From the NCBI RefSeq assembly GCF_025639805.1, contig NZ_CP106735.1, positions 3,133,501 to 3,197,500 of the forward strand: DNA of 64,000 nucleotides, given 5' to 3'. Positions within the stretch are counted from its first letter, which is position 1. The number at the start of each line of letters is the position of its first letter. The notes under the pieces are model-generated. The model had not been told where the DNA came from and did not search any database. It saw nothing but the letters and a program-made list of their open reading frames with translations. Positions 6,590 through 25,356 of this stretch are shown here, piece by piece. The position numbers were made by a program, and so were the translations under genes. This stretch comes from Reichenbachiella carrageenanivorans (GTDB taxonomy: Bacteria > Bacteroidota > Bacteroidia > Cytophagales > Cyclobacteriaceae).

Positions 6590-6760
6590 AACCTGCATGA
6601 TGCATTAAGAAATCTATTTCGAGATTAAATAGCTTCAAATCAGACACTTCGTTTCGTTTTACTCATCACTATAGTGGTGGTGCTATGCTTTCTTCGCAAA
6701 ACTTCCTGATTTATCGCTTTTTAACCGCTCATCACGAAGCCCTAATGCATCATGCAGGTT
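6590..6760. repeat. 171-bp element with perfect 18-bp inverted termini
   Basis: The 18 bases at 6590-6607 are the exact reverse complement of 6743-6760. The 135 bases between hold no credible gene. The symmetric ends suggest a small non-autonomous (MITE-like or REP-like) element or a large hairpin. No target-site duplication was obvious. I saw no second copy in the window. Confidence 0.6.
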
Positions 6761-6970: not shown

Positions 6971-9139
6971 TTATCCTTTTTTTAGCAGTTGCTCTCGCTT
7001 ATATATGGCCAATCCGAGTCTTAATTTATCATAAGGCATCTTTTGCTCGAAGTGCTCAAAAAGAGGTTTGAGCTGCTCTGTTTCTCCTGTTTTAGCTATG
7101 CCTTCAAAAATTTGATTTTGTTCTTGTTTGCTGATGTAGCTCGATAACTCGATGTCCTGTCCTTGCTCGTAGAGCGTGGCCAGATGAGAGAAGATAGTGA
7201 CGATATTCAGGTTTCTTTTCTTAGCGATTTCTTTAGGCTCCAGGCCATCTTTGAGTAGTTCGAAAGTCACCAGATGGGTTGCCCCTTTTATTTTCTCACC
7301 TTCGAGCGTTTTTTCTTTAATAAAGGTGATGATCTCATTGATAAACTCTCGACCATACTGGTCTGCTTTGCGCTGTCCTATACCAGATATATTGAGTATC
7401 TCGTCGTCTGTGGTAGGCCTGTGAATCGACAGCTCTTGGAGCGTAGCATCACTGAATACCAAATAGGCGGCTATGCCTTGGGCTTCCGCTAATCGCTTTC
7501 TGAGCGCTCGCAGACGCTCGAATAGGGCATCTGTTTGCTGCGCCTTTTTGGTAGGAGTAGTAGGCGTGAGGCGTTGCTTTCTTTCTTCTTGTGATTCTGG
7601 TTTACTTATTTTTACTTCTATTTCGCCATAGAGCGCTTTTTTGCCAAGATCGGTAATTCTCAGAATGTTGTGTTGGTCGAAGGCGATTTCTAATAAACCA
7701 AGATTTAGGAATTGCCCAATAAAGTGTTGCCACTCCATAAATCCATGGTCTTTGCCTACTCCATAAGTTTTGATGTTTTGATACCCCAGTTGGAATAAGT
7801 CCTGTCTGCCAGAGCCACGCAAGATATCGATGAGCATACGTGAACCCACTTTTTGTTGGGTACGAGCTACAGCAGATAGAGCCATCTGTGCTAGCTTGAG
7901 CCCATCCATAAACTCAGGAGGGTTTCGGCATACGTCGCAGTTGCCGCAGTCTTTTTCGAGTTGCTCGCCAAAGTAGCTAAGTAGGAGTTTTCTTCGGCAT
8001 GAGGTAGCTTCTGCAAACTGCTGCATGCGTTGAAGTTTGGCCTCTAGAAGTTCTTTTTGTTCACCCTGCTCGATAAACTGTTTGAGTTGCATCACGTCGC
8101 TGTAGCTGTAGAATAGGAGGGTTTTAGAATTTAGTCCATCTCTGCCCGCGCGGCCGATTTCCTGATAGTAGCTTTCGAGGTTTTTGGGTAGGTTGTGGTG
8201 GATCACCCAGCGTACATTGGATTTGTCTATTCCCATGCCGAAAGCGATGGTGGCACATACCACTTTGAGATCGTCTCGGATAAATCGCTCCTGAACTTTG
8301 TCTTTGACTTGGGCATCCATGCCAGCATGATAAAAATCCGCATCTATGCCTTGCGCCTGCAGCTTGGCCGTTAGACTTTCTGTGCTTTTTCTACTTAGGC
8401 AATAGATGATGCCAGATTCGTCAGGTTGTTTTTTGATCCAGTTGATGATGGTCTCCACACGTTTCTGCGCTGGTCGTACGTTGAGGTTTAGATTTGGCCG
8501 GTCAAACGAAGCCAAGAAGGTTTTTGCATGGACGATATTCAGTTGGTTGAGGATGTCGGTACGGGTGGCTTTATCGGCTGTGGCTGTAAGTGCCATGACA
8601 GGCACTTTGGGGAACTGCTCTTTGATAAATTTGAGCTTTGTGTATTCTGGACGAAAGTCATGACCCCATTGTGAGATGCAATGTGCTTCATCTACGGCGA
8701 TCAGGTTGAGCTTGGCTGATTTGAGTACATTGAAAAAATCTCTGGTCATTAATTTTTCTGGTGAGACGTAGAGTGCCTTGATCTCTCCAGCCATAAACTG
8801 CTCTTCTATCATGCGTTGCTGGCTGCCTGTGAGTGTGCTGTTGAGAAAAGCCGCCGATACGCCATTTTGGCGCAAAGCCTCTACCTGATCTTTCATAAGT
8901 GAAATGAGTGGAGAAATGACTAGGCAGGAACCATCTTGTACCAGCGCTGGGATTTGATAGCAGATGGATTTTCCGCCACCTGTAGGCATGATCACTAAGG
9001 CGTCTTGGCCTGCGAGTGCCTGACTAATGACTTCTTCTTGCAGAGAGCGAAATTGTCCGTAGCCGAAGGTTTCTTTGAGTATGGTAAGGGCTTTCGCCAA
9101 TAGTTCGGTGTTGGGCAAGGTGGTACTTATATTCGTCAT
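6971..9139 (-). CDS. recQ: ATP-dependent DNA helicase RecQ
   Basis: 722 residues. Order of domains: DEAD/DEAH helicase core with Walker A MPTGGGKSICYQ and VDEAHCISQWGHDFRPEY; helicase C-terminal domain ending IGRAGRDGLNSKTLL; the zinc-binding cysteines (CRRKLLLSYFGE, then CGNCDVC); an RQC winged helix; an HRDC domain with LVFSDATLQELSIHRP; and a C-terminal helix-turn-helix of the HTH_40 type. RecQ is a 3'-5' helicase that processes stalled forks and recombination intermediates. The extra C-terminal region makes it longer than E. coli RecQ (about 610 residues) and is common in Bacteroidota. It stands alone on the minus strand. Confidence 0.96.
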   Translation of the reverse strand: MTNISTTLPNTELLAKALTILKETFGYGQFRSLQEEVISQALAGQDALVIMPTGGGKSICYQIPALVQDGSCLVISPLISLMKDQVEALRQNGVSAAFLNSTLTGSQQRMIEEQFMAGEIKALYVSPEKLMTRDFFNVLKSAKLNLIAVDEAHCISQWGHDFRPEYTKLKFIKEQFPKVPVMALTATADKATRTDILNQLNIVHAKTFLASFDRPNLNLNVRPAQKRVETIINWIKKQPDESGIIYCLSRKSTESLTAKLQAQGIDADFYHAGMDAQVKDKVQERFIRDDLKVVCATIAFGMGIDKSNVRWVIHHNLPKNLESYYQEIGRAGRDGLNSKTLLFYSYSDVMQLKQFIEQGEQKELLEAKLQRMQQFAEATSCRRKLLLSYFGEQLEKDCGNCDVCRNPPEFMDGLKLAQMALSAVARTQQKVGSRMLIDILRGSGRQDLFQLGYQNIKTYGVGKDHGFMEWQHFIGQFLNLGLLEIAFDQHNILRITDLGKKALYGEIEVKISKPESQEERKQRLTPTTPTKKAQQTDALFERLRALRKRLAEAQGIAAYLVFSDATLQELSIHRPTTDDEILNISGIGQRKADQYGREFINEIITFIKEKTLEGEKIKGATHLVTFELLKDGLEPKEIAKKRNLNIVTIFSHLATLYEQGQDIELSSYISKQEQNQIFEGIAKTGETEQLKPLFEHFEQKMPYDKLRLGLAIYKREQLLKKG

Positions 9140-14444: not shown

Positions 14445-15699
14445 ATCTTTGTCAGCATCTAACCTATATCTGGAGCGATACGCTTATCAACAAAAGTATC
14501 TGGCAGCGTCTGATTACGGGCAGCCCGACCTGATTGTGGTATTGCCGTGCCACAACGAGCCAGATTTGCAGACTTCGCTAGAAGCTCTGGCGGCTTGCGA
14601 CCCGCCCAAAGGCGAGGTGGCAGTGATCGTAGTGATCAATGCGTCGCAAGCCAGTACGAAGGAAGTAAAACAGCACAATGAGCAGACGCTTGCTGCTTGT
14701 CAGTCTTGGGTTTCGGCTCAGTCTGATCGTTATACCTTTCATTTTATATTAGAAAATGAGCTACCCAAAAAGCATGCAGGCGTAGGTCTGGCGCGCAAAA
14801 TAGGCATGGACGAGGCTGTGCGAATGTTTGATGCGCAAGGACAGGATGGCGTGATCCTCTGTTTTGATGCCGACAGCACTTGTGAGCCTAATCTGCTGAC
14901 AGAAGTAGAACGACTATTTGATGAAAATCCCAAAACACCAGGTTGTTCGATTCACTTCGAGCATCCGCTCGAAGGCACGTTGGTAGATGAAGTGTATGCA
15001 GGCATACTCAGTTATGAACTGCATTTGCGCTATTATGTAGATGGACTCAAATATGCTGCTTTTCCGTATGCCTTTCAGACGATAGGCTCAAGTATGGCGG
15101 TACGATCTTCGGCTTATCAAAAGCAAGGCGGCATGAATCGTCGCAAAGCTGGAGAGGATTTCTATTTTTTACACAAGATCATTCCTTTGGGAAATTTCAA
15201 AGAGCTGAATACGACTAAAATCATCCCATCGCCGCGTCGATCAGATCGGGTGCCGTTTGGTACGGGTCGAGCCATCGGGACATGGCTCGACGAAGGCAAG
15301 TCTGAATTGCTCAGTTACGATCCTCAGGTCTTCGAAGTGCTCAAAAATTTCTTTGCAACGGTCGACCCATTGTATCAATCTAAGGAAACTGAATTTGTTT
15401 GGAATCATTATCCCCAGTCCATTCAGCAGTTTATCCCTTTGGTAGAATTTAGGCCTCAAATCAATGAATTCAATGCGCAGGCCAATTCTTTAGCCACTTT
15501 CCAAAAGCGGTTTTACCAATGGTTTGACGGCTTCAAAGCCTTGAAATTCGTACACTTTGCGAGGGATAAATTTTATCCAAATGTGCCTATCGCCGAAGGG
15601 GTAGATTGGCTATTTGAGACCCTAGGCAAGAATTCCCAACCTTGGGATTTGAAAAGGAAGTTGGTGGAGTTGCGAGTAGAAGATAAAACCCACTCATGA
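14410..15699 (+). CDS. family 2 glycosyltransferase-like protein
   Basis: 429 residues. The GT-A fold starts with LIVVLPCHNEPDLQTSLEAL at about 41-60 and has an Asp-x-Asp style metal motif in CFDADSTCEPN near residue 160. A QTIGSSMAVR stretch and a GEDFYFLHKI acceptor-site motif (ED) follow at about 230-260. There is no membrane segment. The ATG at 14410 overlaps pdxH by 35 bases; a TTG at 14452, 8 bases past the pdxH stop, is an alternative start that would remove the overlap. Donor and acceptor sugars are unknown. Confidence 0.75.
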   Translation: MDNGRPNVWHLKSLSASNLYLERYAYQQKYLAASDYGQPDLIVVLPCHNEPDLQTSLEALAACDPPKGEVAVIVVINASQASTKEVKQHNEQTLAACQSWVSAQSDRYTFHFILENELPKKHAGVGLARKIGMDEAVRMFDAQGQDGVILCFDADSTCEPNLLTEVERLFDENPKTPGCSIHFEHPLEGTLVDEVYAGILSYELHLRYYVDGLKYAAFPYAFQTIGSSMAVRSSAYQKQGGMNRRKAGEDFYFLHKIIPLGNFKELNTTKIIPSPRRSDRVPFGTGRAIGTWLDEGKSELLSYDPQVFEVLKNFFATVDPLYQSKETEFVWNHYPQSIQQFIPLVEFRPQINEFNAQANSLATFQKRFYQWFDGFKALKFVHFARDKFYPNVPIAEGVDWLFETLGKNSQPWDLKRKLVELRVEDKTHS

Positions 15700-15775
15700 A
15701 TCCTCTCAAATCATAGGAGAAACAAAAAGCTCGACTAGTTTTGCGCGCTCATCTCTCAATTCTAAAATACAATCC

Positions 15776-17404
15776 ATGTTTAAAGCGAATGCCCTTTTAA
15801 TTCTATTTATTTTCTCATTTTTTTCAACTCAAGCACAGACCAAAGAAGAGTTTATTTCATTTTTAAAAGATATGAAAGAGACCTTGGATGATTCAAAATA
15901 CTTGGGGTGGAAATCGGTAGATAAATCTAGCATCTTGGATTCGGTCTATTTTTCAGAAACTTCTGTAGAAGAAGCAAAACGTAGGGCGTTCAACTTCTCC
16001 AATAGCCTCTATTTTTCTTCCAACAACAATGAAATTTATACTTATAGCGAGTATCCTTTTGGTAAGTATTACTATGATAGCATGCGGGTCACGCTAGAGG
16101 ATGGGCAGCAGTTTTATACGGGTATCGAAGATGGTGGTCATTTTTCCGAAGGAAGCTTCGCATTTGATCCAGATACTTTAAACAGTCCTGTATCTTCCGT
16201 ATCCGGCAAGGTCAGGTATTGGTACCCTGATCGGGTTAAAGTTTTTACTTTCGATAAAAAGAATCTAGGCAAAAAAATCTGGAAGGAGGGCATCTATGCC
16301 CAGCTTCTTGAATTGGAAGATAATTTCCTCAAAGTCAATATCGGCCCAGGCGATTCATTGAGCTACAGCAAATACTATTCTACAGGTTACTTGGAGATGA
16401 GGGTTTATGCCTTGAATGACAAACAGGAGGACATCAGTAGGGTGTTTGGCACCTCTATGAATAGCATGGAAGGTCTGTCGGAATTGATAGATATGGTCAT
16501 AGAAAAGGGCAAAGACGAAACCGTGGATGGAGAAAAGCTCGGTGAGTACATGTCTGGACTCGCTGAGAATGAATTCGCAAATCCAGGGGTGAATTTTGCA
16601 GCGTCAGTAGAAGGAACGATTGACCAAGTGATGGTGGTGGTAAGGCTGGAAGATGATTGGGACTATGTGGAGGATTCGGTGGTGATCGTACCGGAAACAA
16701 TAGCTACCGAAGGCTGGCAACGAGACGGAGACGTGGCGCTCAATAGCGATCAGATTCATGTGAGCTTTAGAGAGGTAACGGCAGACCAATTGATTGCTCA
16801 ATCCACCATGAAGGCATCCAATCATTACAATGAATACCTAGAGATCTATCAGCCTCGGGTAGACTTACGACTCCCATGGATAGACAATGAGTTTTTAACT
16901 GGGTATCAAGATTTGGAGGTAGAACTCACACATGTCGAGTTTTATAAAAACAAAAAAATGCTACCCGCCAGTGTGGAATCTTCCAGAATGAATACCCCTG
17001 TATATTACGGTTTTTTGGGTACGCTAGAAAAGGAAAAGGCGATCGCCAACCTCGTGAAAGGGGAGTTTTCTTTTGACTATGCTACTCAAGTGCAGCTCAG
17101 AAAGTTGGAGGAAAGCCAGTACACCATAGATCACCATTCGATCGTCAGTATCCCATGGGATGCTATGGGCTATGCGGACAGTAGAGATTTTAGAAGTCAT
17201 ATGGCTGGCCAAAAAGTATGGGCCAAAAATAGCTCAGGAGACTGGCTGGTGATGATCGATGACAATTTCTATTTTAAAGAAAGGACGAATAGCGTCAACT
17301 ACTGTTTCGCTGGTCAGGTGACGGAGGTCTTTGTGGCAGAAATCAAAGAAGGAAAAGAACAAATCCGAATACCATTTGATTTGGAGATACAGCAGCCAGA
17401 CTAA
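15776..17404 (+). CDS. secreted protein of unknown function
   Basis: 542 residues. A signal peptide (FIFSFFSTQAQ, cleavage after about residue 21) is followed by a mostly beta-strand protein. A central acidic segment (EGKDETVDGEKLGEYM) and aromatic-rich strands (YWYPDRVKVFTF, WDYVEDSVVIVPE) stand out. I recognise no domain, no membrane helix after the signal and no type IX sorting tail at the C-terminus, which ends LEIQQPD. It is the last gene before the cassette array and may be periplasmic. Confidence 0.7.
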   Translation: MFKANALLILFIFSFFSTQAQTKEEFISFLKDMKETLDDSKYLGWKSVDKSSILDSVYFSETSVEEAKRRAFNFSNSLYFSSNNNEIYTYSEYPFGKYYYDSMRVTLEDGQQFYTGIEDGGHFSEGSFAFDPDTLNSPVSSVSGKVRYWYPDRVKVFTFDKKNLGKKIWKEGIYAQLLELEDNFLKVNIGPGDSLSYSKYYSTGYLEMRVYALNDKQEDISRVFGTSMNSMEGLSELIDMVIEKGKDETVDGEKLGEYMSGLAENEFANPGVNFAASVEGTIDQVMVVVRLEDDWDYVEDSVVIVPETIATEGWQRDGDVALNSDQIHVSFREVTADQLIAQSTMKASNHYNEYLEIYQPRVDLRLPWIDNEFLTGYQDLEVELTHVEFYKNKKMLPASVESSRMNTPVYYGFLGTLEKEKAIANLVKGEFSFDYATQVQLRKLEESQYTIDHHSIVSIPWDAMGYADSRDFRSHMAGQKVWAKNSSGDWLVMIDDNFYFKERTNSVNYCFAGQVTEVFVAEIKEGKEQIRIPFDLEIQQPD

Positions 17405-17541
17405 AAGGGGATTGTTCTTTTGTTTTTTTCCAATGCTTGCTTCTTATTTTCTTTTTTGCAGAATTTGACACCTTATATCTGTGGGTTTGGGTCACATCAA
17501 AGCAGCTACTTTGAGGTTAGTCGTCTATTTATTTCTCGATA

Positions 17542-17605
17542 GTGCTGATTCTGGCATTGCTTCGGAAAGCTCGCAAGGGCATTCGTGCCTACACCATGTT
17601 AGAGA
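17542..17605 (-). other. attC-like half-site (distal end of array)
   Basis: 60 of 64 bases match 21750-21813 without gaps. Core GTTA is at 17598-17601 and contains the stop codon of the SLATT gene. The expected opposite arm (TAAC plus GTGTAGG-like bases) was not found in the 140 bases before it, so this terminal site seems truncated or decayed, as is usual at the end of a static array. Confidence 0.65.
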
Positions 17606-18264
17606 CCTTTTTCTAGACTATTTAGGATTGATGCAATTATGATTATAGCAGGAATTAAAATCATCGCATGATATACAAGTTTAACTTGGGCATAATACCT
17701 TAAGTTAGTTTTAAAACAGATCCATGGTCCTAGTTCAAAATAATCACGTTGTTCGACTCTGAATTTTTTATAATCAATACTTTCATGATTGGGATAACCC
17801 TCGAGTACTGCCTGATACTTTTTACTTATCATTTTACAGAATTCATGAGTATCATCTTCGCTGCTATTTTGTAGAGTCTTGAATATTCTAAGTTCGTCAT
17901 AAAGAGCTGATACCTTTAGAGCACATTCTTGAAAATTCCGAGCTCTAATTTTAAAATCTTGAGCAGCTTCCATTTGACTGAAAGCTAGTAATAAAATCGA
18001 TATTGTCGTTGTTCCGAATGCAATCAAATTATCACTAATCATCGATTCTCCGGTAATTTTATATACTGACAAAAGTCCCAAAATGATTAGATACGCTGAA
18101 AGAAAACCAATTGCCTTATTTGATAGGTTATTTTGAGTTAAAAGCCTTGTGCTAGATCGAAAGCGAATGGATTTAGTTGACCAAAACTTGTAGTTAAGTT
18201 CTTCCAGATATGTCTTATTGAGATGGTTTTTATGTGTTGGAAATTTTGATTCTTTTTCTGCCAT
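17599..18264 (-). CDS. SLATT-domain membrane protein (cassette A)
   Basis: 221 residues. An N-terminal amphipathic part with FWSTKSIRFRSSTRLL precedes two close transmembrane helices (about 48-68 and 78-98), then a long cytoplasmic helical region, and a third hydrophobic segment near the C-terminus (about 196-215). The opening and paired helices fit SLATT proteins (SMODS and SLOG-associating two-TM effectors), which are predicted pore-forming effectors of nucleotide-sensing and reverse-transcriptase defence systems. No sensor, CD-NTase or RT gene is next to it. Its stop TAA lies inside an attC core and its start is 12 bases from another core, so it is a single-gene cassette. SLATT assignment is by eye. 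Confidence 0.7.
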   Translation of the reverse strand: MAEKESKFPTHKNHLNKTYLEELNYKFWSTKSIRFRSSTRLLTQNNLSNKAIGFLSAYLIILGLLSVYKITGESMISDNLIAFGTTTISILLLAFSQMEAAQDFKIRARNFQECALKVSALYDELRIFKTLQNSSEDDTHEFCKMISKKYQAVLEGYPNHESIDYKKFRVEQRDYFELGPWICFKTNLRYYAQVKLVYHAMILIPAIIIIASILNSLEKGL

Positions 18265-18275
18265 AAAATTTCGTG

Positions 18276-18462
18276 GTCTCTAACCAGCTATCCGCTGTGG
18301 TGCTTGACGTGCAGTTTGTTTCGGATACAATGTAGGAAAATCTTCGATTCTCATCGCTATTTTTTTATTTAGTGAGGGAAATCGAAGATTTTCCGGTGCA
18401 AGTAGAAAGCAGAGCCGCTCAAATCAGCAGAGAATGCCATGGATTGATTAGGCTATGTTATG
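18276..18462 (-). other. attC-like recombination site (after cassette B)
   Basis: TAAC at 18281-18284 and GTTA at 18457-18460 bound a 187-bp imperfect palindrome. On the minus strand the site starts with TAACATAGCC and ends GCTGGTTAGAGAC. Its centre holds a perfect 15-bp stem (18335-18349 with 18380-18394, 30-base loop), comparable in position to the variable terminal structure of folded attC sites. Arm pairing beyond the core is weaker than in the other two complete sites. Confidence 0.55.
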
Positions 18463-19639
18463 CTCTTTTTTCATCAACCACAACAGCGTCAACAGTTTCA
18501 TTATCATCTATTGATATTAATCTGGTTGTTTCTTTTAGTTTTTTACTGTTGTTTAATGTTCCTTCTTCCATTTGAGATATGACAATGTCAAAATCTTCTG
18601 AGTATTTCTGGTCATTCGAAAATAAAATCAACTTGTGTTTTATTTTTTTCGTCTTGGTACTAATTTCAGTAATAAGATCATTCAGTGTAATTAAATTAAA
18701 CTTAACAGATTCTTTTAAAGCCTCAACTAGCTTCATCGATTCTTCAGTATCATCACTTTTGGCGTTCACCATATTTAATGTATTATTTATTTTATCGCAG
18801 GTCGAATCAAATTTTCTATGCAATTCTAGTAGCGACATCAATTGTGGCGAAATAAGCTCTCTAAACGTTATACCATGCACAATTAGTTTCAGCTTGTTAT
18901 TGGCTTCATCAGGCTGGATTTTATCAAATGTTAAATCTTCAATAACATCATCAATGGCTTGAATAATAGGTCGGTTCTTTTTTAAGCCTAAAAGAATTTT
19001 TACTATGTAATAAATCCCAAAAAACAGTAATCCTACCTTCAAGGTTGTCAAGGAAACATATTCAAAAGCAGGTATTGATTGTAGTAGTCCTATCAAAATT
19101 ACTATAGGAACTCCCTTTAAAATTAGACCAGCTAATTTGACGTATTTATTTTGCTTCGATTCATTTTTTTTCATTAAATGAATGGGGGTATATGCCATTA
19201 TTACATATGCAATCATAGCGAAGGCAATGATGTAAAATAGAACGTTAAATGTGGTTTTGAAAAAACCTTCAAGGTAACCAAGGTAATTTACGGAGTAGTA
19301 TAATAATCCAAACACGCCTAGTTCATAGAAAAACGAAAACCTCAAAGAGGTTATCTCGGATTTTAAGAAAAAATATGTTGTTTCTTGAATCTTAGAGCCA
19401 TTTTCTGTTGAATTGTCAAACACAAATTTGATATAGGGATAAACGAAATATACTATGAATCCTATTTTGATTGCAGTGTTGTAATCCAAAGTATCAGATC
19501 TAAATAAGCTCACAAATATCCAAACAAGTGTTACCAATGCTCCTTTTAGAGCCCAGATTGTCCATCCTGGTTCGTTCAGTTTTTGATTCAGGTTATTTCT
19601 ATAGAAGTAAAGAGACTGTAATGTTTCTATTTTGGTCAT
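18458..19639 (-). CDS. six-pass membrane protein with helical cytoplasmic tail (cassette B, gene 2)
   Basis: 393 residues. Six hydrophobic segments at about 25-46, 57-74, 101-123, 131-150, 170-190 and 198-220 are followed by roughly 170 residues of soluble, mostly helical sequence rich in Lys, Asp, Leu and Ile, likely coiled-coil. No known domain was recognised. It starts 22 bases after the TIGR02391 gene and its stop codon lies in the attC core at 18457-18460. The pairing with a HEPN-like gene in one cassette suggests an effector/regulator pair, one member of which is membrane-bound. That is inference. Confidence 0.65.
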   Translation of the reverse strand: MTKIETLQSLYFYRNNLNQKLNEPGWTIWALKGALVTLVWIFVSLFRSDTLDYNTAIKIGFIVYFVYPYIKFVFDNSTENGSKIQETTYFFLKSEITSLRFSFFYELGVFGLLYYSVNYLGYLEGFFKTTFNVLFYIIAFAMIAYVIMAYTPIHLMKKNESKQNKYVKLAGLILKGVPIVILIGLLQSIPAFEYVSLTTLKVGLLFFGIYYIVKILLGLKKNRPIIQAIDDVIEDLTFDKIQPDEANNKLKLIVHGITFRELISPQLMSLLELHRKFDSTCDKINNTLNMVNAKSDDTEESMKLVEALKESVKFNLITLNDLITEISTKTKKIKHKLILFSNDQKYSEDFDIVISQMEEGTLNNSKKLKETTRLISIDDNETVDAVVVDEKRA

Positions 19640-19661
19640 TTGGTAGGAGATTGTAGATTAG

Positions 19662-20420
19662 TTATTTCTCTTTTATTCTGTTATCCCAAATTCGCATTAA
19701 ATGACTCGAGAAAACAAGTAGTTCCCAAGCCTCAATAAGATTCATGTCGACATTTGCGTGTGAAAGGGGGTTTCTAATTCCTCGCATAACTCCTGCGAAA
19801 ATGTTCATATATCCGTCCTGTTTATTGACACCACTCTCTGTATCTGTTAGGCAGATCTGGATAGTTGGATTATTACCGTTTTTGTTCGATACTGAAAAGG
19901 CATGACGCATTAGTTTCTCTCCATCAAGTTCCTTACTAGAAATTGTCTTGTATTCGTCTTTAATTTGAGAGTTCAGTTCTTTGAATGCAGCAACAATCGC
20001 ATCTGAATACAACCCTTGATCAAATCTTGGTTTAGCAAGTTCATGGATTTTAGGATGAATCATGCTCCAGTCTAACTCTGTTGATCTACTTTCCTTCGTT
20101 TCAGATAAATAATGGAGATAGCTCTCTTCAACTTCGAATATGTCAGTTAAGCAAATTGATCTAATATCTCCTTCACAATTTTGAGGCTGACCACTAAAAA
20201 TATACCGTCTAAGAAAACTTGAATGCCGAAGCAGGTAGCCTTTTTGAAATACCTCTGATGGAATAAGTCTACCTAGTCGTTCCAGTTCACGGCTATAAAC
20301 TTCTTCAAGTGCTACTAGTGCATCAATATGTGCATTTTGATCAAACTTCTCCTTGAGTTCAATAGCAACTCTGTGTAGATGTCTAAACTGAATGATTGCT
20401 TCGTTGTTTGCTAGTTGCAT
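19662..20420 (-). CDS. TIGR02391 (Ymh) family protein with HEPN-like RX4H motif (cassette B, gene 1)
   Basis: 252 residues. The C-terminal half (about 118-247) matches the TIGR02391/Ymh pattern: WSMIHPKIHELAKPRFDQG, DAIVAAFKELNSQIK, GEKLMRHAF, then GYMNIFAGVMRGIRNPLSHAN and the closing helix. Arg216 and His221 in RNPLSH form an RX4H motif as in HEPN ribonucleases. Family members are often found in abortive-infection, restriction and mobile loci. The N-terminal 110 residues are helical and unassigned. The start ATG is 12 bases from the core at 20432-20435. RNase activity is inferred, not shown. Confidence 0.72.
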   Translation of the reverse strand: MQLANNEAIIQFRHLHRVAIELKEKFDQNAHIDALVALEEVYSRELERLGRLIPSEVFQKGYLLRHSSFLRRYIFSGQPQNCEGDIRSICLTDIFEVEESYLHYLSETKESRSTELDWSMIHPKIHELAKPRFDQGLYSDAIVAAFKELNSQIKDEYKTISSKELDGEKLMRHAFSVSNKNGNNPTIQICLTDTESGVNKQDGYMNIFAGVMRGIRNPLSHANVDMNLIEAWELLVFSSHLMRIWDNRIKEK

Positions 20421-20427
20421 TGTATTA

Positions 20428-20620
20428 ATCCTAACGCCTGTGTATAGATCGTGCGTTTTGGTGAAGATAATGCTTCGGATTCAAAATAGCCAAATCTCTG
20501 ATTTGGTCTATACAATTTTTGATTCAAATAGATCACATCTGAGATATGGCGGTGCTTCCAGAAAGCAGAAAAACTCACTCAACAATCTACATAGCATGAC
20601 TCTTATACACCATGTTATCT
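20428..20620 (-). other. attC-like recombination site (after cassette C)
   Basis: TAAC at 20432-20435 and GTTA at 20614-20617 bound a 193-bp site. The arms pair as imperfect inverted repeats: TAACGCCTGTGTATAGATCG against the reverse complement of the right arm, which reads TAACATGGTGTATAAGAGTC. On the minus strand the site ends GGCGTTAGGAT, a classical R-box sequence, 8 bases before the start of the next gene. Confidence 0.65.
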
Positions 20621-20660
20621 TCCTTTTTTTAGATTATGCTTAATTAAATAATATATTGCG

Positions 20661-21578
20661 ATGAGAAACCTGATTAACCTAATGGAAGCAGAAAAGTTCA
20701 CATTCAAATACAGGGGTGATTTAGAATATATTGATTTTGATACCCTGTATACCAGCCAATTACATTTTGCTGAGTTCATACGTGAAGTTAAGAACAGCTT
20801 AGCTCCAGACTATGACCTTAAAATAAAACTACGAGCATTACCACCTGCTAGCTTTCCAATTGAACTGTTTATAGATTTTAAACAGGTAACAAATTTGATT
20901 ACCTCAGGGCAAGATATTCTAAATAATGTAGGAGGTATTGCTGGGTCTGTTGTGGTAATTATAGAGCTCTATAAGCATCTAAAAGGGAAGAAATCTTCTA
21001 AAGAGGAGATAGGAGAAAATAATACAACTAATATTTATAACGTTAAAGGTGATGTTTTTGTGATTGATAGTTCTATTTATAGCGCAATTAAAAGCAATCC
21101 TAACATACAGTCTGAGTTGAAAAATGTATTTGACAAAGTAGATAAAGATGATGATGTTGAAAGTATTCAGTTATTAGATAGTTCGAATGAGGAGTTATCT
21201 TCTATACTAAAAAATGAGTTTGAGTATTTCGACGTGAAAGACAATTTGTTTGAGGATACGGAAGGGATTGAAAGAGAAAAGTATAAACTTATCGAATTTG
21301 CTAACTTGAATATATTCAAAGTGGTCTTTTCAAAAGGGTTTAAGTGGCAATTTTATTACAAGGGGATTAAGATTAATGCTGAAATAGAGGATAATGACTA
21401 CTTGATAAAAGTCGTTAAAGGCAGTATGAGTTTCTCTAATGGGGATATTCTTGTTTGTGACTTAGCCATAAAACAAGTATACAATGAGTTTGCAGGGACG
21501 TACGAAAACAAGGAATACAAAGTCACTAAAGTTCATAAAAGAATACTCCGAGCCGAGCAATTAAATTTAGAAGATTAG
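20661..21578 (+). CDS. protein of unknown function, opposite orientation to the array (cassette C)
   Basis: 305 residues. Residues 1-90 look like a beta-alpha domain (FTFKYRGDLEYIDFDTL, LKIKLRALPPASFPIELFI). A hydrophobic segment (about 96-112, NNVGGIAGSVVVIIELY) and a charged linker follow. The C-terminal 200 residues are mixed strands with many Asp, Glu and Lys (FKWQFYYKGIKINAEIEDNDY). No signal peptide. I recognise no named family. It is the only gene in the array on the plus strand and would need its own promoter, as attC readthrough would be antisense. The two core sites nearest it (20617 and 21586) lie 44 and 8 bases from its ends. Confidence 0.65.
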   Translation: MRNLINLMEAEKFTFKYRGDLEYIDFDTLYTSQLHFAEFIREVKNSLAPDYDLKIKLRALPPASFPIELFIDFKQVTNLITSGQDILNNVGGIAGSVVVIIELYKHLKGKKSSKEEIGENNTTNIYNVKGDVFVIDSSIYSAIKSNPNIQSELKNVFDKVDKDDDVESIQLLDSSNEELSSILKNEFEYFDVKDNLFEDTEGIEREKYKLIEFANLNIFKVVFSKGFKWQFYYKGIKINAEIEDNDYLIKVVKGSMSFSNGDILVCDLAIKQVYNEFAGTYENKEYKVTKVHKRILRAEQLNLED

Positions 21579-21582
21579 TGGA

Positions 21583-21813
21583 AGATAACGCCTGTGTAGG
21601 ACGATGTGCCCTCACAGCTTGATTAAAGTAGAAAGATAGCCGATCCGCGCACAACCACAAAAGCCTGTTTAGCCATTACGTTTGATTTAGACCGCCAAGG
21701 AAACCACGAATGCGTTCTCGGTATTCTAGAGATTCCGCGAGGAGCGGCGGTGCTGATTCTGGCATTAATTCGGGAAGCTCGCAAGGGCATTCGTGCCTAC
21801 ACCTTGTTAGAGA
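21583..21813 (-). other. attC-like recombination site (after cassette D)
   Basis: TAAC at 21586-21589 and GTTA at 21806-21809 bound a 231-bp site. The outer 34 bases of both arms are strongly complementary with small bulges: left arm GCCTGTGTAGGACGATGTGC, right arm reverse complement AAGGTGTAGGCACGAATGCC. On the minus strand it opens TCTCTAACAAG and closes AGGCGTTATC, close in style to Vibrio-type attC ends. The stop codon of the cassette D gene is in the right core. 21750-21813 is duplicated at 17542-17605. Confidence 0.7.
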
Positions 21814-22388
21814 GATTTTTCAGTCGATTTAAGCTGAATCGTGATGGTACCGTTGCTAATTGAAACATCTGCATATTGATTTACAGCCATTTGGAGTGTT
21901 ACAACGAAAACAAAGACTAGCCCCAATGAAGTAATAACTTTATAAAGTGGAGTGTCATACTTTTTAAGATGTTCGAGGGCCATATAAACTTTATCACCTT
22001 TACTGATGGCAAACACTTGCCCGCTCATGTTGGAGCTGCCTTTACGTATCGTATAGGTTATGGTATCACCAGCTAACACCTCGTTCATGAAACTATCTGA
22101 ATCGAATCCATTATCAAATTCGAGCGGGCCGGAAATATCAATATATGTATGATTTACTCGATCCAAAACAACTTTTTTTCCATCTTGGCTGGCTGTTATG
22201 TGAGGGTTGTGCTTTAACAGTGCGACTCGAGTAGTATAGTCGTCAGGGTTGAAGTTAAGAAGTTGTGATTTGAGAGCAATGCTTGTGAACCATACCATGC
22301 CTACTATGGAAGCTAACCACATCAAGATTCGACTCCATTCATGTTCAAGTCTAAATCTTCTCTTTGGCTTAACTAGTTTAATTCTCAT
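21807..22388 (-). CDS. two-pass membrane protein of unknown function (cassette D)
   Basis: 193 residues. A basic N-terminus (KLVKPKRRFRL) precedes a transmembrane helix at about 20-42, an exported-looking or cytoplasmic domain of about 95 residues with beta-strand character (DTITYTIRKGSSNMSGQVFAI), then a second helix at about 147-167 and a short C-terminal strand. No family recognised. The stop codon TAA is inside the attC core at 21806-21809 and the start codon is 11 bases from the core at 22399-22402, so gene and site form one cassette of about 810 bp. Confidence 0.65.
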   Translation of the reverse strand: MRIKLVKPKRRFRLEHEWSRILMWLASIVGMVWFTSIALKSQLLNFNPDDYTTRVALLKHNPHITASQDGKKVVLDRVNHTYIDISGPLEFDNGFDSDSFMNEVLAGDTITYTIRKGSSNMSGQVFAISKGDKVYMALEHLKKYDTPLYKVITSLGLVFVFVVTLQMAVNQYADVSISNGTITIQLKSTEKSL

Positions 22389-22395
22389 CAGTTCT

Positions 22396-22490
22396 CTCTA
22401 ACATCCAGGTATCAACCACTAGTGGTTGATATATCCCTTATGTTTTAGTTTTAAAAGTATTCTTTTTTCTCAGAAATGCTGCGGTTAGGT
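22396..22490 (-). other. proximal cassette boundary with 22-bp perfect palindrome
   Basis: TCTCTAAC at 22395-22402 is the fourth core, reading GTTAGAGAG on the minus strand ahead of the cassette D start. It is followed by an exact 22-bp palindrome at 22410-22431 (ATCAACCACT and its complement). A second core-like GTTAGGT at 22484-22490 could close a short attC of about 95 bp, but arm pairing is weak. This is the array end nearest nrnA, where attI would be expected if an integrase had been present. Confidence 0.4.
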
Positions 22491-22583
22491 CTGGCTGCTA
22501 GACAAACCTAAAACAAGAATACCAAAATAAAGAGATGAAAGCAAGAGGGAATGGTATGTGTCCATAACATTAGTCCATGGATG

Positions 22584-22614
22584 TTTAAAACATTGCCTCG
22601 CTTTCGTACCTTCG
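22584..22614 (+). promoter_or_regulatory. possible promoter of nrnA
   Basis: TTTA at 22584-22587, 19 bases, then TACCTTCG at 22607-22614, a near match to TTTG-N19-TAnnTTTG, ending 30 bases before the ATG of nrnA. Confidence 0.45.
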
Positions 22615-22644
22615 CACTCTTCTCTATAGATAGATTAGCATTTC

Positions 22645-23649
22645 ATGAATATATACGAACAGATTGTAGCTGAAATTTGCTCAGCGAAGCACATAGTCAT
22701 TACTTCTCATAAGTCGCCAGATGGAGACTCGGTAGGTAGCTCGTTGGGCCTGTTAAGGTTTATCGAAAAGCTGGGGCGTTCGGCTATGGTCTGTCACCCA
22801 GATGCAGCGCCAGATTTTCTGGAGTGGGTGGGACTAGCACCTATATGGCTCATGACCGATCAGCCAGAGGAGGTTACTGCTGCCTTTGAAAAAGCCGACT
22901 TGATTTTCTCTTTGGATTACAATGCTACAGATCGTATCGGGTCAGATATGCAAGCATTGCTAGAAGCGGCTACTTGCAAGAAAGTGATGATCGATCACCA
23001 TCTCCATCCGCAGGATTTTGCCACGCTGATGGTATCAGAGACTTCGTCGTCGTCTACCGCACAGCTCATCACCGAGCTGGTGGTGCAGTCGGGCAATGAA
23101 GCCATGCTGGATGAGCACATCGGTACGCCGCTCTATTTGGGTATTTTGACCGATACGGGTAGTTTCCGATTTCCAGCAGTACAGCCACGTACGCACGAGC
23201 TGTTGGCCAAACTATTGGCGGCAGGCGTACAGCACCACCTGATTCACGAAGTGCTCAACGACAATAATACGGCGAGTCGCTTGCGTTTGCAGGGATACGC
23301 CATGAGTGAGAAGTTGGAGATATTGGAAGATTACCATGTGGCGCTTATTCCTTTGACTAAAGAAGAACTAGCCAAGTATAATTATCAAAAAGGCGATACT
23401 GACAGCTTGGCCAACTTGGCCTTGTCGATCAAGGGCATGAAAGTAGCCGTGATGCTGGCCGAGCGTGACGGCATAGTGAAGATGTCTTTCCGATCCAAAG
23501 GCGACGAAAATCCAGTCAATACCCTGGCTGCCGATCACTTCAGTGGCGGAGGACACGCCAATGCAGCTGGTGGCATGAGCAATTCGTCTGTAGAGGAGAC
23601 TTTAGTCAAAATTAAAAAAGTGATTCCTGACTATTTCGAGAAGGAATAG
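22645..23649 (+). CDS. nrnA: DHH/DHHA1 phosphoesterase, NrnA-like oligoribonuclease and pAp phosphatase
   Basis: 334 residues. The DHH motifs are complete: SHKSPDGDSVGS at 21-32, LDYNATDRIG, MIDHHLHPQDF and GILTDTGSFRFP, all metal ligands. The DHHA1 domain ends with FRSKGDENPVNTLAADHFSGGGHANAAGG, the GGGHxxAAG substrate loop. NrnA-type enzymes finish RNA decay by cleaving short oligonucleotides and dephosphorylate 3'-phosphoadenosine 5'-phosphate. The length and full motif set fit NrnA. The convergent porin gene ends 27 bases downstream. Confidence 0.92.
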   Translation: MNIYEQIVAEICSAKHIVITSHKSPDGDSVGSSLGLLRFIEKLGRSAMVCHPDAAPDFLEWVGLAPIWLMTDQPEEVTAAFEKADLIFSLDYNATDRIGSDMQALLEAATCKKVMIDHHLHPQDFATLMVSETSSSSTAQLITELVVQSGNEAMLDEHIGTPLYLGILTDTGSFRFPAVQPRTHELLAKLLAAGVQHHLIHEVLNDNNTASRLRLQGYAMSEKLEILEDYHVALIPLTKEELAKYNYQKGDTDSLANLALSIKGMKVAVMLAERDGIVKMSFRSKGDENPVNTLAADHFSGGGHANAAGGMSNSSVEETLVKIKKVIPDYFEKE

Positions 23650-23676
23650 CACTGGAGGGGTGATTGCGAGATAGAT

Positions 23677-25356
23677 TTAGTTTAGTAGTAAGAGTAGTCT
23701 GGTATTTAGGCCTGTGGTACGACCTTTTACACCCATTTGCTCCACTTCGCCATATCTGAAATTGAAACTTACATTGGCAAATTCGGTAGGCCACCAGTTT
23801 AACCCAAGTGAATAAATATTCATAAGACCATAATTGATGTTTCGATCGATGAGGTCGTAGTTAGAAAATCGTGCGGTGAGTTCCCAAGCTCCTCGGCCGC
23901 CTTGGTTGACGCCAATAGCCACTGGAATTGGGCTGGTAGTGCCGTTATTGTAGCGATAGGAGCGATGCTCTCCGCTCAGTATCCATGAGCCCGTGATTTG
24001 AAATTGATTGAAGTTGAGGCTTTCCGATCCAGAGACATCCAAATGGTTGAAGATGTATTCAGAAAAAATCCAATAAGGCCCCATCATCCAGCCTATTTCT
24101 GCGCCTGTGAGGTTCATGCTGTTGGTAGAGATGTGGTCAGTTTCGATGAAGTTGATAGACTTGTTAAACTCTGGAGTGATGCCATATTGTGCGCCATTGT
24201 TGCCGTTAGAGTATCGGTTTGATACCCCAATATGAAGTAGGTTATTGCCTGTTTTTGATGCCCAAGGCACTCCAGTGACTCGGCCTACCACTACGGTTTC
24301 GTTGTCTGAAATGCCTCCATCTTTTTCTATAAATGGATTGAATACGCCAGCAGCCCACGACATTCTTTTTTTGAGGAGATTACCGCTGAGTTGTGCTCCT
24401 ATGTTTCGTCCTGGCTGAAAGGCGTCGGAGGCTCTTTCCTGCATAGAGTTGAATAGGGAGGAGGGTACTCTTTCGATAGACGAAGGTTCTTTTTGTTTTC
24501 CAATGCTTAATGTTACCTGTTTTGGCAATGGGATATCCAAACGGTAATCATAGAAAGTAAGATTGTTGAGTTCACTATCTTCAAAGCCTTTTTCAAAGGC
24601 GTTTGTAGCCACGAATACGGTATAGCTCCATGGTTTTTTGAGAAATTTTACTGTGCCAATGGCTCCAAACCGTAAGCCTCTTATTTCGCCACCTGCGTTG
24701 GATTCGAGTGATCCTATTTGTGTTTTGCTATCGTCATTTTGCGAAAGCCAATACAGTCGGTCCATCGCAAGCGCAGCAAAGAATAGCCCTTTGAAATGTT
24801 TGGTGTTCCAGTGGTTCCACTTACTGCCGTCGCTATAGTTGACAGGTAGCGCAAAGGGTGGTGGAGTGTATGCAAACCACTTGATTCTTCCGTAGGGATC
24901 TTTTTGATTTTCAGGACTACTGTTGTCTTCTTCCAATTTATTGATACGGATATTGCCATCGTAAATAGCGAAAATAATGTGTGGTTCCATATTGAGCCAT
25001 AAGTCAAAATTCTTACGAGGATCCTTTTTTAGGATAAGAAACTTTGGGGCGGTGTCGATAGTTAGGTTGCCGATTAGATATCCACCTTTAGCATCTAGGG
25101 CTATGCTATTTTCTTTTTTGGTCAAGACCTCAGACGACACCAATTCTAGTTTGTCGTCAATGATCAATAGGTTGACATGAAAAAGAGATGAATCAGAGCT
25201 GTTAGTGATCACATTGACATTTCTGATGATAAGTGTTTCCTCTTTGTTAGTTTGTGCGAAAGCGCCACTGCAGATCATCAATAGCAAGCATGTTTTTGCT
25301 ATAGCCTGCGTGGGCCAAAAGGAAACCATTTGTATTGTTGAGCTTTTGGGATTCAT
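23677..25356 (-). CDS. OprP/OprO-like outer-membrane porin
   Basis: 559 residues. After an N-terminal signal region (the hydrophobic stretch TCLLLMICSGAFAQ is at about 22-35, so the true start may be the Met at residue 10) comes an extra N-terminal domain of about 120 residues. A barrel domain follows with YDYRLDIPLPKQVTLSIGKQ, then SSLFNSMQERASDAFQPGRNIGAQLSG, matching phosphate-selective porins O and P. Typical porin P members have about 430 residues; the extra N-terminal part, including ILKKDPRKNFDLWLNME, is unexplained. Phosphate or pyrophosphate uptake is inferred from family only. It ends in aromatic strands, as outer-membrane barrels do. Confidence 0.82.
   Translation of the reverse strand: MNPKSSTIQMVSFWPTQAIAKTCLLLMICSGAFAQTNKEETLIIRNVNVITNSSDSSLFHVNLLIIDDKLELVSSEVLTKKENSIALDAKGGYLIGNLTIDTAPKFLILKKDPRKNFDLWLNMEPHIIFAIYDGNIRINKLEEDNSSPENQKDPYGRIKWFAYTPPPFALPVNYSDGSKWNHWNTKHFKGLFFAALAMDRLYWLSQNDDSKTQIGSLESNAGGEIRGLRFGAIGTVKFLKKPWSYTVFVATNAFEKGFEDSELNNLTFYDYRLDIPLPKQVTLSIGKQKEPSSIERVPSSLFNSMQERASDAFQPGRNIGAQLSGNLLKKRMSWAAGVFNPFIEKDGGISDNETVVVGRVTGVPWASKTGNNLLHIGVSNRYSNGNNGAQYGITPEFNKSINFIETDHISTNSMNLTGAEIGWMMGPYWIFSEYIFNHLDVSGSESLNFNQFQITGSWILSGEHRSYRYNNGTTSPIPVAIGVNQGGRGAWELTARFSNYDLIDRNINYGLMNIYSLGLNWWPTEFANVSFNFRYGEVEQMGVKGRTTGLNTRLLLLLN

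Follow-up and report, generated by a model that had tools for sequence, protein, structure and literature searches.

Integron-like cassette arrays in Reichenbachiella carrageenanivorans and an associated tyrosine recombinase without the IntI-specific insert

Introduction

Chromosomal integrons with a canonical IntI, as described in parts of two papers (PMC9024848, PMC9668308), consist of an attI site beside a tyrosine recombinase gene and an array of cassettes; the cassettes have attC sites with AAC...GTT cores and complementary arms, exchange occurs at GTT, and many cassette genes are of unknown function. We found an array of the same anatomy in a 64,000-nucleotide (nt) stretch of the Reichenbachiella carrageenanivorans chromosome (G000:C1:3133501-3197500; the genome is a single contig of 4,812,735 bases), referred to below as the window. 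The array is best explained, with a probability that we put at roughly 0.85, as an integron platform on which a non-canonical, insert-less tyrosine recombinase, encoded beside a larger array of the same chromosome, acts in trans.

Xer recombinases act at dif-type sites, and the integrase of Treponema integrons is a canonical IntI. The latter is transcribed towards attI and in the direction of the cassettes, according to a portion of PMC3607928, which is also the arrangement seen here. Clusters of attC sites lacking integron integrases (CALINs), described in part of PMC9024848, resemble the window array in having at least two attC sites with no integrase gene adjacent to them. Bacteroidota are among the phyla listed with integrons in part of PMC8618304, and one complete integron, that of Salinibacter, is named in Bacteroidetes proper in sections of PMC9024848. 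The IntegronFinder program requires a match to the profile of the IntI insert (from a section of PMC9668308); therefore, judging from its stated criteria, insert-less integrons would be filed as CALINs or overlooked. The open-licence literature of PubMed Central, preprints excluded, yielded no paper on this integron type in Bacteroidia, and a report elsewhere is possible.

Results

Cassette arrays, attI-like sites and the recombinase gene

The window array (22431-17542 on the minus strand, which is the orientation of its cassettes) comprises an attI-like site and four cassettes, whose attC sites are two good ones, one degenerate and one truncated. The attI-like site (22431-22399) is formed by a 22-nt palindrome, followed by CCTGGAT and then by GTTA. 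The preliminary description of the locus listed three complete and two partial attC sites and classified the array as a CALIN without an integrase. Its sites correspond to the good, degenerate and truncated ones given above, except that the partial site ending at 22402 is the attI-like site and not half of an attC. The CALIN label is accurate with respect to the attC sites and the lack of an adjacent integrase gene, and it is incomplete because the array has an attI-like site of its own, in contrast to a CALIN, and a recombinase is encoded elsewhere in the chromosome. Likewise, the absence of an integrase holds locally and not genome-wide, as a recombinase gene lies about 1.64 Mb away, beside an attI-like site and an array larger than this one.

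A search of the single-contig genome with the integron-integrase model revealed no canonical IntI above the cut-off; the best-scoring piece, at 4,799,149, is far under it. The gene found beside the larger array, hereafter the main array, encodes an insert-less tyrosine recombinase of 401 amino acids (aa). It is directly followed by an attI-like site (palindrome and GTT) and then by the array, which runs in the same direction for approximately 17 kb and, on a circular chromosome, would continue across the contig ends. The features by which an integron is functionally defined are thus present in the sequence: a recombinase gene adjoining attI, an array of attC-ended cassettes, and discrete mobile units bounded at GTT.

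Cassette 2 of the window array (1159 bp) is 100% identical to a cassette of the main array, and the identity stops at the CGTTA and GTTA cores. The main array holds two copies, identical over 851 bp, of a cassette with a 205-aa product, and a third copy is located at 3,512,346-3,513,200 (855 bp, 100%). The main array also has a 715-bp unit in common (99.7%) with an array of reverse direction at ~4,783-4,792 kb. The attI-like site of the reverse array matches the main attI at 99% over 96 bp, a stretch that takes in the end of the recombinase gene; the likeness stops at GTT. Near 658 kb there is one further attI-like site, accompanied by a cassette. Judged by these tests on cassettes and boundaries, the arrays appear integron-like, and the attI and attC anatomy, the boundaries at GTT, the pairing of cassette ends described below and the identical cassettes in separate arrays are all evident at the level of sequence.

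Pairing of the cassette ends

The two ends of a cassette are often complementary to each other. Such complementarity was seen in cassettes 1, 2 and 4 of the window: AGAGAGA behind the GTTA core of cassette 1 matches TCTCTCT ahead of AAC in the first attC, and AGAGACC behind the GTT that precedes cassette 4 matches GGTCTCT ahead of AAC in its truncated attC. We then counted complementarity between the bases behind GTT and those ahead of the next AAC in 124 pairs of consecutive detected sites; near-duplicate cassettes were kept, and pairs straddling an undetected site count against the signal. Complementary bases were found in 79-89% of the pairs at bases 1-6, 56% at base 7, 5% at base 8, and 73 and 56% at bases 9 and 10, compared with 26-50%, 32%, 5%, and 64 and 38%, respectively, for shuffled partners. 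The excess of pairing therefore lies mainly in bases 1-7. All six first bases paired in 81 of the 124 pairs, with 64 different hexamers among them, versus a mean of 1.3 and a maximum of 6 for shuffled partners; in a preceding count on fewer pairs, at least five of six paired in 62 of 89 (shuffled mean 3.8, maximum 10).

Among 130 distinct sites, GTT is followed by six variable bases and then by a conserved [AC]AT, with A at base 8 in 124 of 129. The hexamer of one of the three leading attC sites also stands directly behind a GTT within 130 nt past the gene at 33 of 54 loci; when attC sites of another locus were used, the same test gave a mean of 0.65 and a maximum of 5. The pairing, which extends 6-7 nt past the core in contrast to canonical integrons, is as expected if each cassette is a circle with its two ends paired in the folded attC.

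The locus and the recombinase in congeners

The window array is flanked by a DHH-family gene on one side and by a gene encoding a 542-aa protein, without a Pfam match, on the other. Orthologues of the DHH gene were found in seven congeners. In one of them, G555, the gene is 88% identical, and the region between it and a glycosyltransferase gene contains an attI-like site made up of a near-perfect palindrome and GTT followed by GGCGGT, then genes of 590 and 561 aa, and an attC in which ACCGCC, complementary to GGCGGT, directly precedes AAC. These two genes make up a Gabija cassette with pairing ends (GajA 7.8e-163, GajB 1e-187), beyond whose attC lie genes of 202 and 132 aa; the 542-aa gene was not found at this locus. 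The single Gabija cassette thus occupies the place that four other cassettes take in the window.

These comparisons agree with the preliminary description, and the phenomenon is larger than described there. Integron-like cassettes are indeed present in this Bacteroidota genome, in further arrays as well as in the window, and additional copies of the sites occur in the main array, the reverse array and further loci with attC- or attI-like sites. The proposed shuffling of cassettes is supported by the identical cassette in two arrays, by the 205-aa cassette in three places, and by the different content of the locus in one congener, a comparison of one pair of genomes.

At a threshold of 1e-90, the recombinase group is present in six of eight genomes of the genus. 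Downstream of the congener genes we counted 15, 8, 1, 17, 4 and 12 sites (threshold 20, with some chance hits), the 12 belonging beside a more distant recombinase; no sites were found upstream within the 954-1385 bp covered. All nucleotide matches of at least 150 bp between the congener arrays and our arrays are at most 253 bp long, which is the size of an attC, except one of 473 bp.

Linkage of the recombinase to arrays in Bacteroidia

A profile built from 24 homologues detected 408 encoding stretches in named genomes, of which the best 80 (L040-L119) were retained. The genera among these best 80 include Reichenbachiella, Fulvivirga, Aquimarina, Winogradskyella, Maribacter and Tamlana. Loci with at least 60 nt behind the stop codon numbered 77 (three with less were dropped, and 19 of the 80 had less than 500 nt). 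At 47 of these 77 loci, versus 6 of 1000 random stretches, the stop codon is followed by a palindrome with a score above 3 that has GTT[AG] at most 20 nt behind it; for GTT[AG] alone the numbers are 57 of 77 versus 125 of 1000. Around the 80 genes, the downstream sequence (242,921 bp) yielded 108 attC-like sites and the upstream sequence (429,538 bp) yielded 16 (50 versus 4 at the strictest threshold), and loci with any such site numbered 47 downstream versus 14 upstream.

In a sample of the same class, 39 of 295 genomes have the recombinase group at 1e-90, and the scores show a gap, with 13 core matches at 530 bits or more and the rest at 372 bits or less. Array linkage was checked for 28 loci of this sample (12 close and 16 of the 29 distant ones): sites were found downstream at 8 of 12 and 8 of 16, respectively, and upstream at none of the 28. 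Canonical IntI proteins above the cut-off are present in 84 of 296 genomes across the phylum, but in 1 of 295 in the class. The genomic contexts thus document a linkage of recombinase gene, attI-like site and array in many Bacteroidia.

Features of the recombinase

The 401-aa protein has a SAM-like domain from residue 120 and a catalytic domain, and its N-terminal part has no Pfam match. Residues R239, K264, H328, R331, H354 and Y363, which we take to be the catalytic ones, are invariant in 24 sequences. The best match among curated models is NF040815, the archaeal XerA type (222.3 bits, cut-off 220), whereas the integron-integrase model TIGR02249 gives 193.4 bits, below its cut-off of 265. 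The alignment with VchIntIA consists of two separate pieces, with 22 residues between them versus 65 in VchIntIA. From the catalytic arginine to the HxLRH motif there are 94-102 residues in 43 close and distant members of the group (95 in 39 of them), 97-106 in six other tyrosine recombinases of the same genome, and 137 in two canonical IntI proteins. By these alignments, the group lacks the IntI-specific insert of approximately 42 residues before HxLRH, and the recombinase is not a member of the IntI family as currently defined.

Other differences from canonical integrons are approximately 105-115 extra N-terminal residues, the direction of the gene, which points towards the array, and the attI, which is a palindrome just past the gene. 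The AlphaFold model (mean predicted local distance difference test score 78, predicted template-modelling score 0.47) has XerA (5hxy) and IntI4 (2a3v) as its closest folds, and the structural matches barely cover the extra N-terminal part. Likeness to XerA/Xer proteins (NF040815; PDB 5hxy, 4a8e) therefore concerns the best curated model, the closest folds, shared with IntI4, and the lack of the insert; the recombinase differs from them in that its gene adjoins attI-like sites and cassette arrays.

In a tree of 54 rows, the recombinase group is sister to five IntI proteins with support of 95/95, and approximately unbiased tests leave alternative placements unrejected (p 0.328 and 0.408). We lean towards the view that Bacteroidia possess integrons of a second kind, with an integrase that lacked the IntI insert from the outset or can do without it, either by a separate Xer-type origin or as an insert-less sister lineage of IntI. 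If so, the folded attC would have to be recognized by other means, for example through the extra N-terminal part and the lengthened end boxes, whose hexamer varies between cassettes and pairs within each of them. A recombinase group that is linked to arrays and has no insert of the sort thought to define integron integrases makes the question about this insert directly testable.

Content of the cassettes

Gene families in the window cassettes are SLATT_5, TIGR02391/Hypoth_Ymh and PDC-S42/LAPAL, together with two unknowns; the main array contains a Fic-family gene (SoFic 5e-51) and others. We scanned 131 of 137 cassette open reading frames (ORFs) from several genomes, having dropped one duplicate, one IS110 transposase and four opposite-strand ORFs. 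They include type IIG and AccI restriction enzymes, a reverse transcriptase, immunity-like proteins and nucleotidyltransferases. The scan gave 68 Pfam families and 249 PADLOC models for these ORFs versus 120 and 33 for 96 upstream ORFs (1e-4); no enrichment is claimed, because the scan does not give match counts per protein. The cassettes probably act mainly in defence and other niche functions, and those with defence-type genes (SLATT, PDC-S42, restriction-modification, reverse transcriptase, SoFic-like, Gabija) may constitute a reservoir of defence genes.

Detection of attC sites

Scanning the window for sites with YAAC/GTTR-type cores at a threshold of 18 gave three matches in the array, one of them mis-paired, and one in the other 58,960 bases. 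When the array was shuffled 100 times under a dinucleotide model, the same scan gave a mean of 0.57 matches and a maximum of 3. With looser cores the scanner is unspecific (18 window matches, of which 14 fall outside the array). The cassette boundaries and the pairing of cassette ends are sharper controls than the site scan. Extra unpaired bases are distributed among the 130 distinct sites without clear asymmetry (in the 5' arm of 45 sites and the 3' arm of 37, with none in 61).

Exact copies of the right-arm pattern TACACCNTGTTA number four genome-wide, of which three lie in the window and the fourth is at 4,806,377. With at most one mismatch the pattern has 51 matches versus 94 for the reversed control; because such matches are rarer than those of the control, only exact ones were used as leads. 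The half-site pattern AACGNCNNTGTAT was found 17 times in the genome versus 2 for the control, and poorly in congeners (9 versus 4 for its reversed control in G557, 6 versus 7 in G551, 3 versus 8 in G556); nothing is concluded from it.

Discussion

By analogy with known integrons, one strand of attC would fold through its complementary arms and through the 6-7 nt pairing of the cassette ends, and this folded strand may be the substrate of recombination. At G^TT, the recombinase would recombine it with either another attC or the palindromic attI-like site. Cassettes would join in one orientation and later be copied or moved between platforms, and those of the window would be inserted and removed in trans, now or recently. 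We infer that the 401-aa protein is the agent that moves them.

Several observations weigh against this interpretation, in which the activity of the 401-aa protein is deduced from sequence. Part of the window array is decayed: the bases behind GTT and ahead of AAC in cassette 3 are not complementary, its attC is degenerate, and that of cassette 4 is truncated. Little support for attC comes from single-strand folding, as the z-scores of the three window sites are unimpressive (-0.27, -2.11 and -3.02). The bottom strand is the more stable one in 29 of 60 attC sites folded (out of 130), so folding does not explain the choice of strand. Six of the seven congeners have the DHH gene alone in the stretch examined, with no attC-like sites, so that the locus comparison rests on one pair of genomes, and congeners G556 and G557 have no recombinase of the group at 1e-90. 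The half-site pattern does not cleanly separate congeners with and without the recombinase, and the count of another half-site in the class-wide set of 295 genomes is near background, with nothing concluded from it. Finally, the loci of the class sample only partly have downstream sites, several contigs ending soon past the gene.

These signs of decay, together with the lack of a local recombinase, would fit a dead relic, that is, a true CALIN whose cassettes have long been fixed and to which the distant recombinase is unrelated. We regard this as improbable: the 1159-bp identity of cassette 2 to its copy in the recombinase-side array indicates a recent transfer, and the same locus has other cassette content in one congener. 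It is very unlikely, too, that a plasmid-borne canonical IntI, or one in a different cell, moves the cassettes. Such proteins do occur in the phylum, in the 84 genomes counted above; against this, none above the cut-off is encoded in the assembly, outside which a plasmid is possible, and the class has a single genome with one versus the 39 with the non-canonical group.

The attC sites are alike enough (~73-96% over 150-250 bp) for homologous recombination or gene conversion between them to shuffle genes without any site-specific recombinase. Under this explanation, to which we give marginally less credence still, one would not expect exchange points at GTT with unrelated bases beyond, cassette starts complementary to their own attC but not to shuffled attC sites, or a recombinase-attI linkage across genera. 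That the palindromes are transposon-made repeats (REP- or MITE-like) merely flanking genes, as the IS110 stretches beside attC described below might suggest, is hardly credible, since the repeats bound whole gene units with pairing ends, the arrays begin at attI-like sites, and an insertion within attC makes attC a target and is silent on its origin.

Annotation of the window array and additional observations

The features of the window array and the recombinase gene are listed in Table 1. The scanner mis-paired the degenerate attC of cassette 3 by matching its right core to a wrong left core (18282-18497); region 18274-18460 aligns over 196 bp, at 79.6% identity, with a complete attC from congener G552. 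The two-gene cassette 3 may be a fusion. The 72-nt block at 17542-17613, which covers the truncated attC, recurs at 21750-21821 with 92% identity. No Pfam or PADLOC family at E 0.1 and no NCBIfam family at 0.01 was found for the 193-aa protein of cassette 1, and an Rfam scan of window positions 15000-24000 gave no family. Promoter-like matches number 24 versus 19.8 in shuffles, and terminator-like ones 3 versus 3.5.

Table 1. Coordinates of the array features (window numbering unless another stretch is named)
Feature	Position	Strand	Basis or match
Perfect 22-nt palindrome of the attI-like site	22410..22431	-	sequence; GATATATCAACCACTAGTG in common with the recombinase-gene end and the attI at G000:C1 ~4,800,000
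GTTA core of the attI-like site, start of cassette 1	22399..22402	-	sequence
Cassette 1 gene, 193 aa	21807..22388	-	ORF and profile scans
attC of cassette 1, 222 nt from AAC to GTT	21587..21808	-	attC scanner
Cassette 2 including attC, 1159 bp	20432..21590	-	100% identical to L034:10405-11563
Cassette 2 gene, 305 aa, reversed within the cassette	20661..21578	+	PADLOC PDC-S42 (1.7e-31); NCBIfam LAPAL family (179 bits, cut-off 60)
attC of cassette 2, 184 nt	20433..20616	-	attC scanner
Cassette 3 gene a, 252 aa	19662..20420	-	Hypoth_Ymh/TIGR02391; PADLOC Aga_HEPN 4.6e-10, PD-Lambda-3_B 1.6e-7
Cassette 3 gene b, 393 aa	18458..19639	-	no family above cut-off (profile scans)
attC of cassette 3, degenerate arms	~18282..18465	-	sequence and likeness to the complete attC of congener G552
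Cassette 4 gene, 221 aa	17599..18264	-	SLATT_5 (SMODS/SLOG-associated 2TM effector)
Truncated attC of cassette 4, left half only	17542..17604	-	sequence and repeat
Tyrosine recombinase gene, 401 aa	L034:3787-4992 (same genome, ~1.64 Mb from the window array)		read of the stretch

In some cassettes the gene is reversed; such genes occur in the window (20661-21578), at L034:10417-11334 and at L035:2511-3824, and encode a 305-aa LAPAL-type protein or a Fic protein. A cassette at L034 ~8097-8799, which is also present in the reverse array, has no ORF of at least 90 aa.

A CCGCAGCATTTCTGAGAAA-like stretch lies upstream of attI-like sites lacking a recombinase gene, at window positions 22450-22505 (minus strand), L120 ~1650-1740 and L182 ~1180-1200; it is common to two loci of this genome and one congener.

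Relatives of IS110 are known to target attC sites. An IS110-family element is present here in five near-identical stretches of ~1.28 kb beside attC sites (L034:14671-15690 and L035:40-1059; also in L033, L124 and L126). The two junctions that were read lie in two attC sites of the main array, and there the element begins within the right attC core, with GGCG followed by ATATCTATGG. Elsewhere in the window, positions 6590-6760 contain a strong inverted repeat, AACCTGCATGATGCATTA ... TAATGCATCATGCAGGTT, of 171 nt from end to end.

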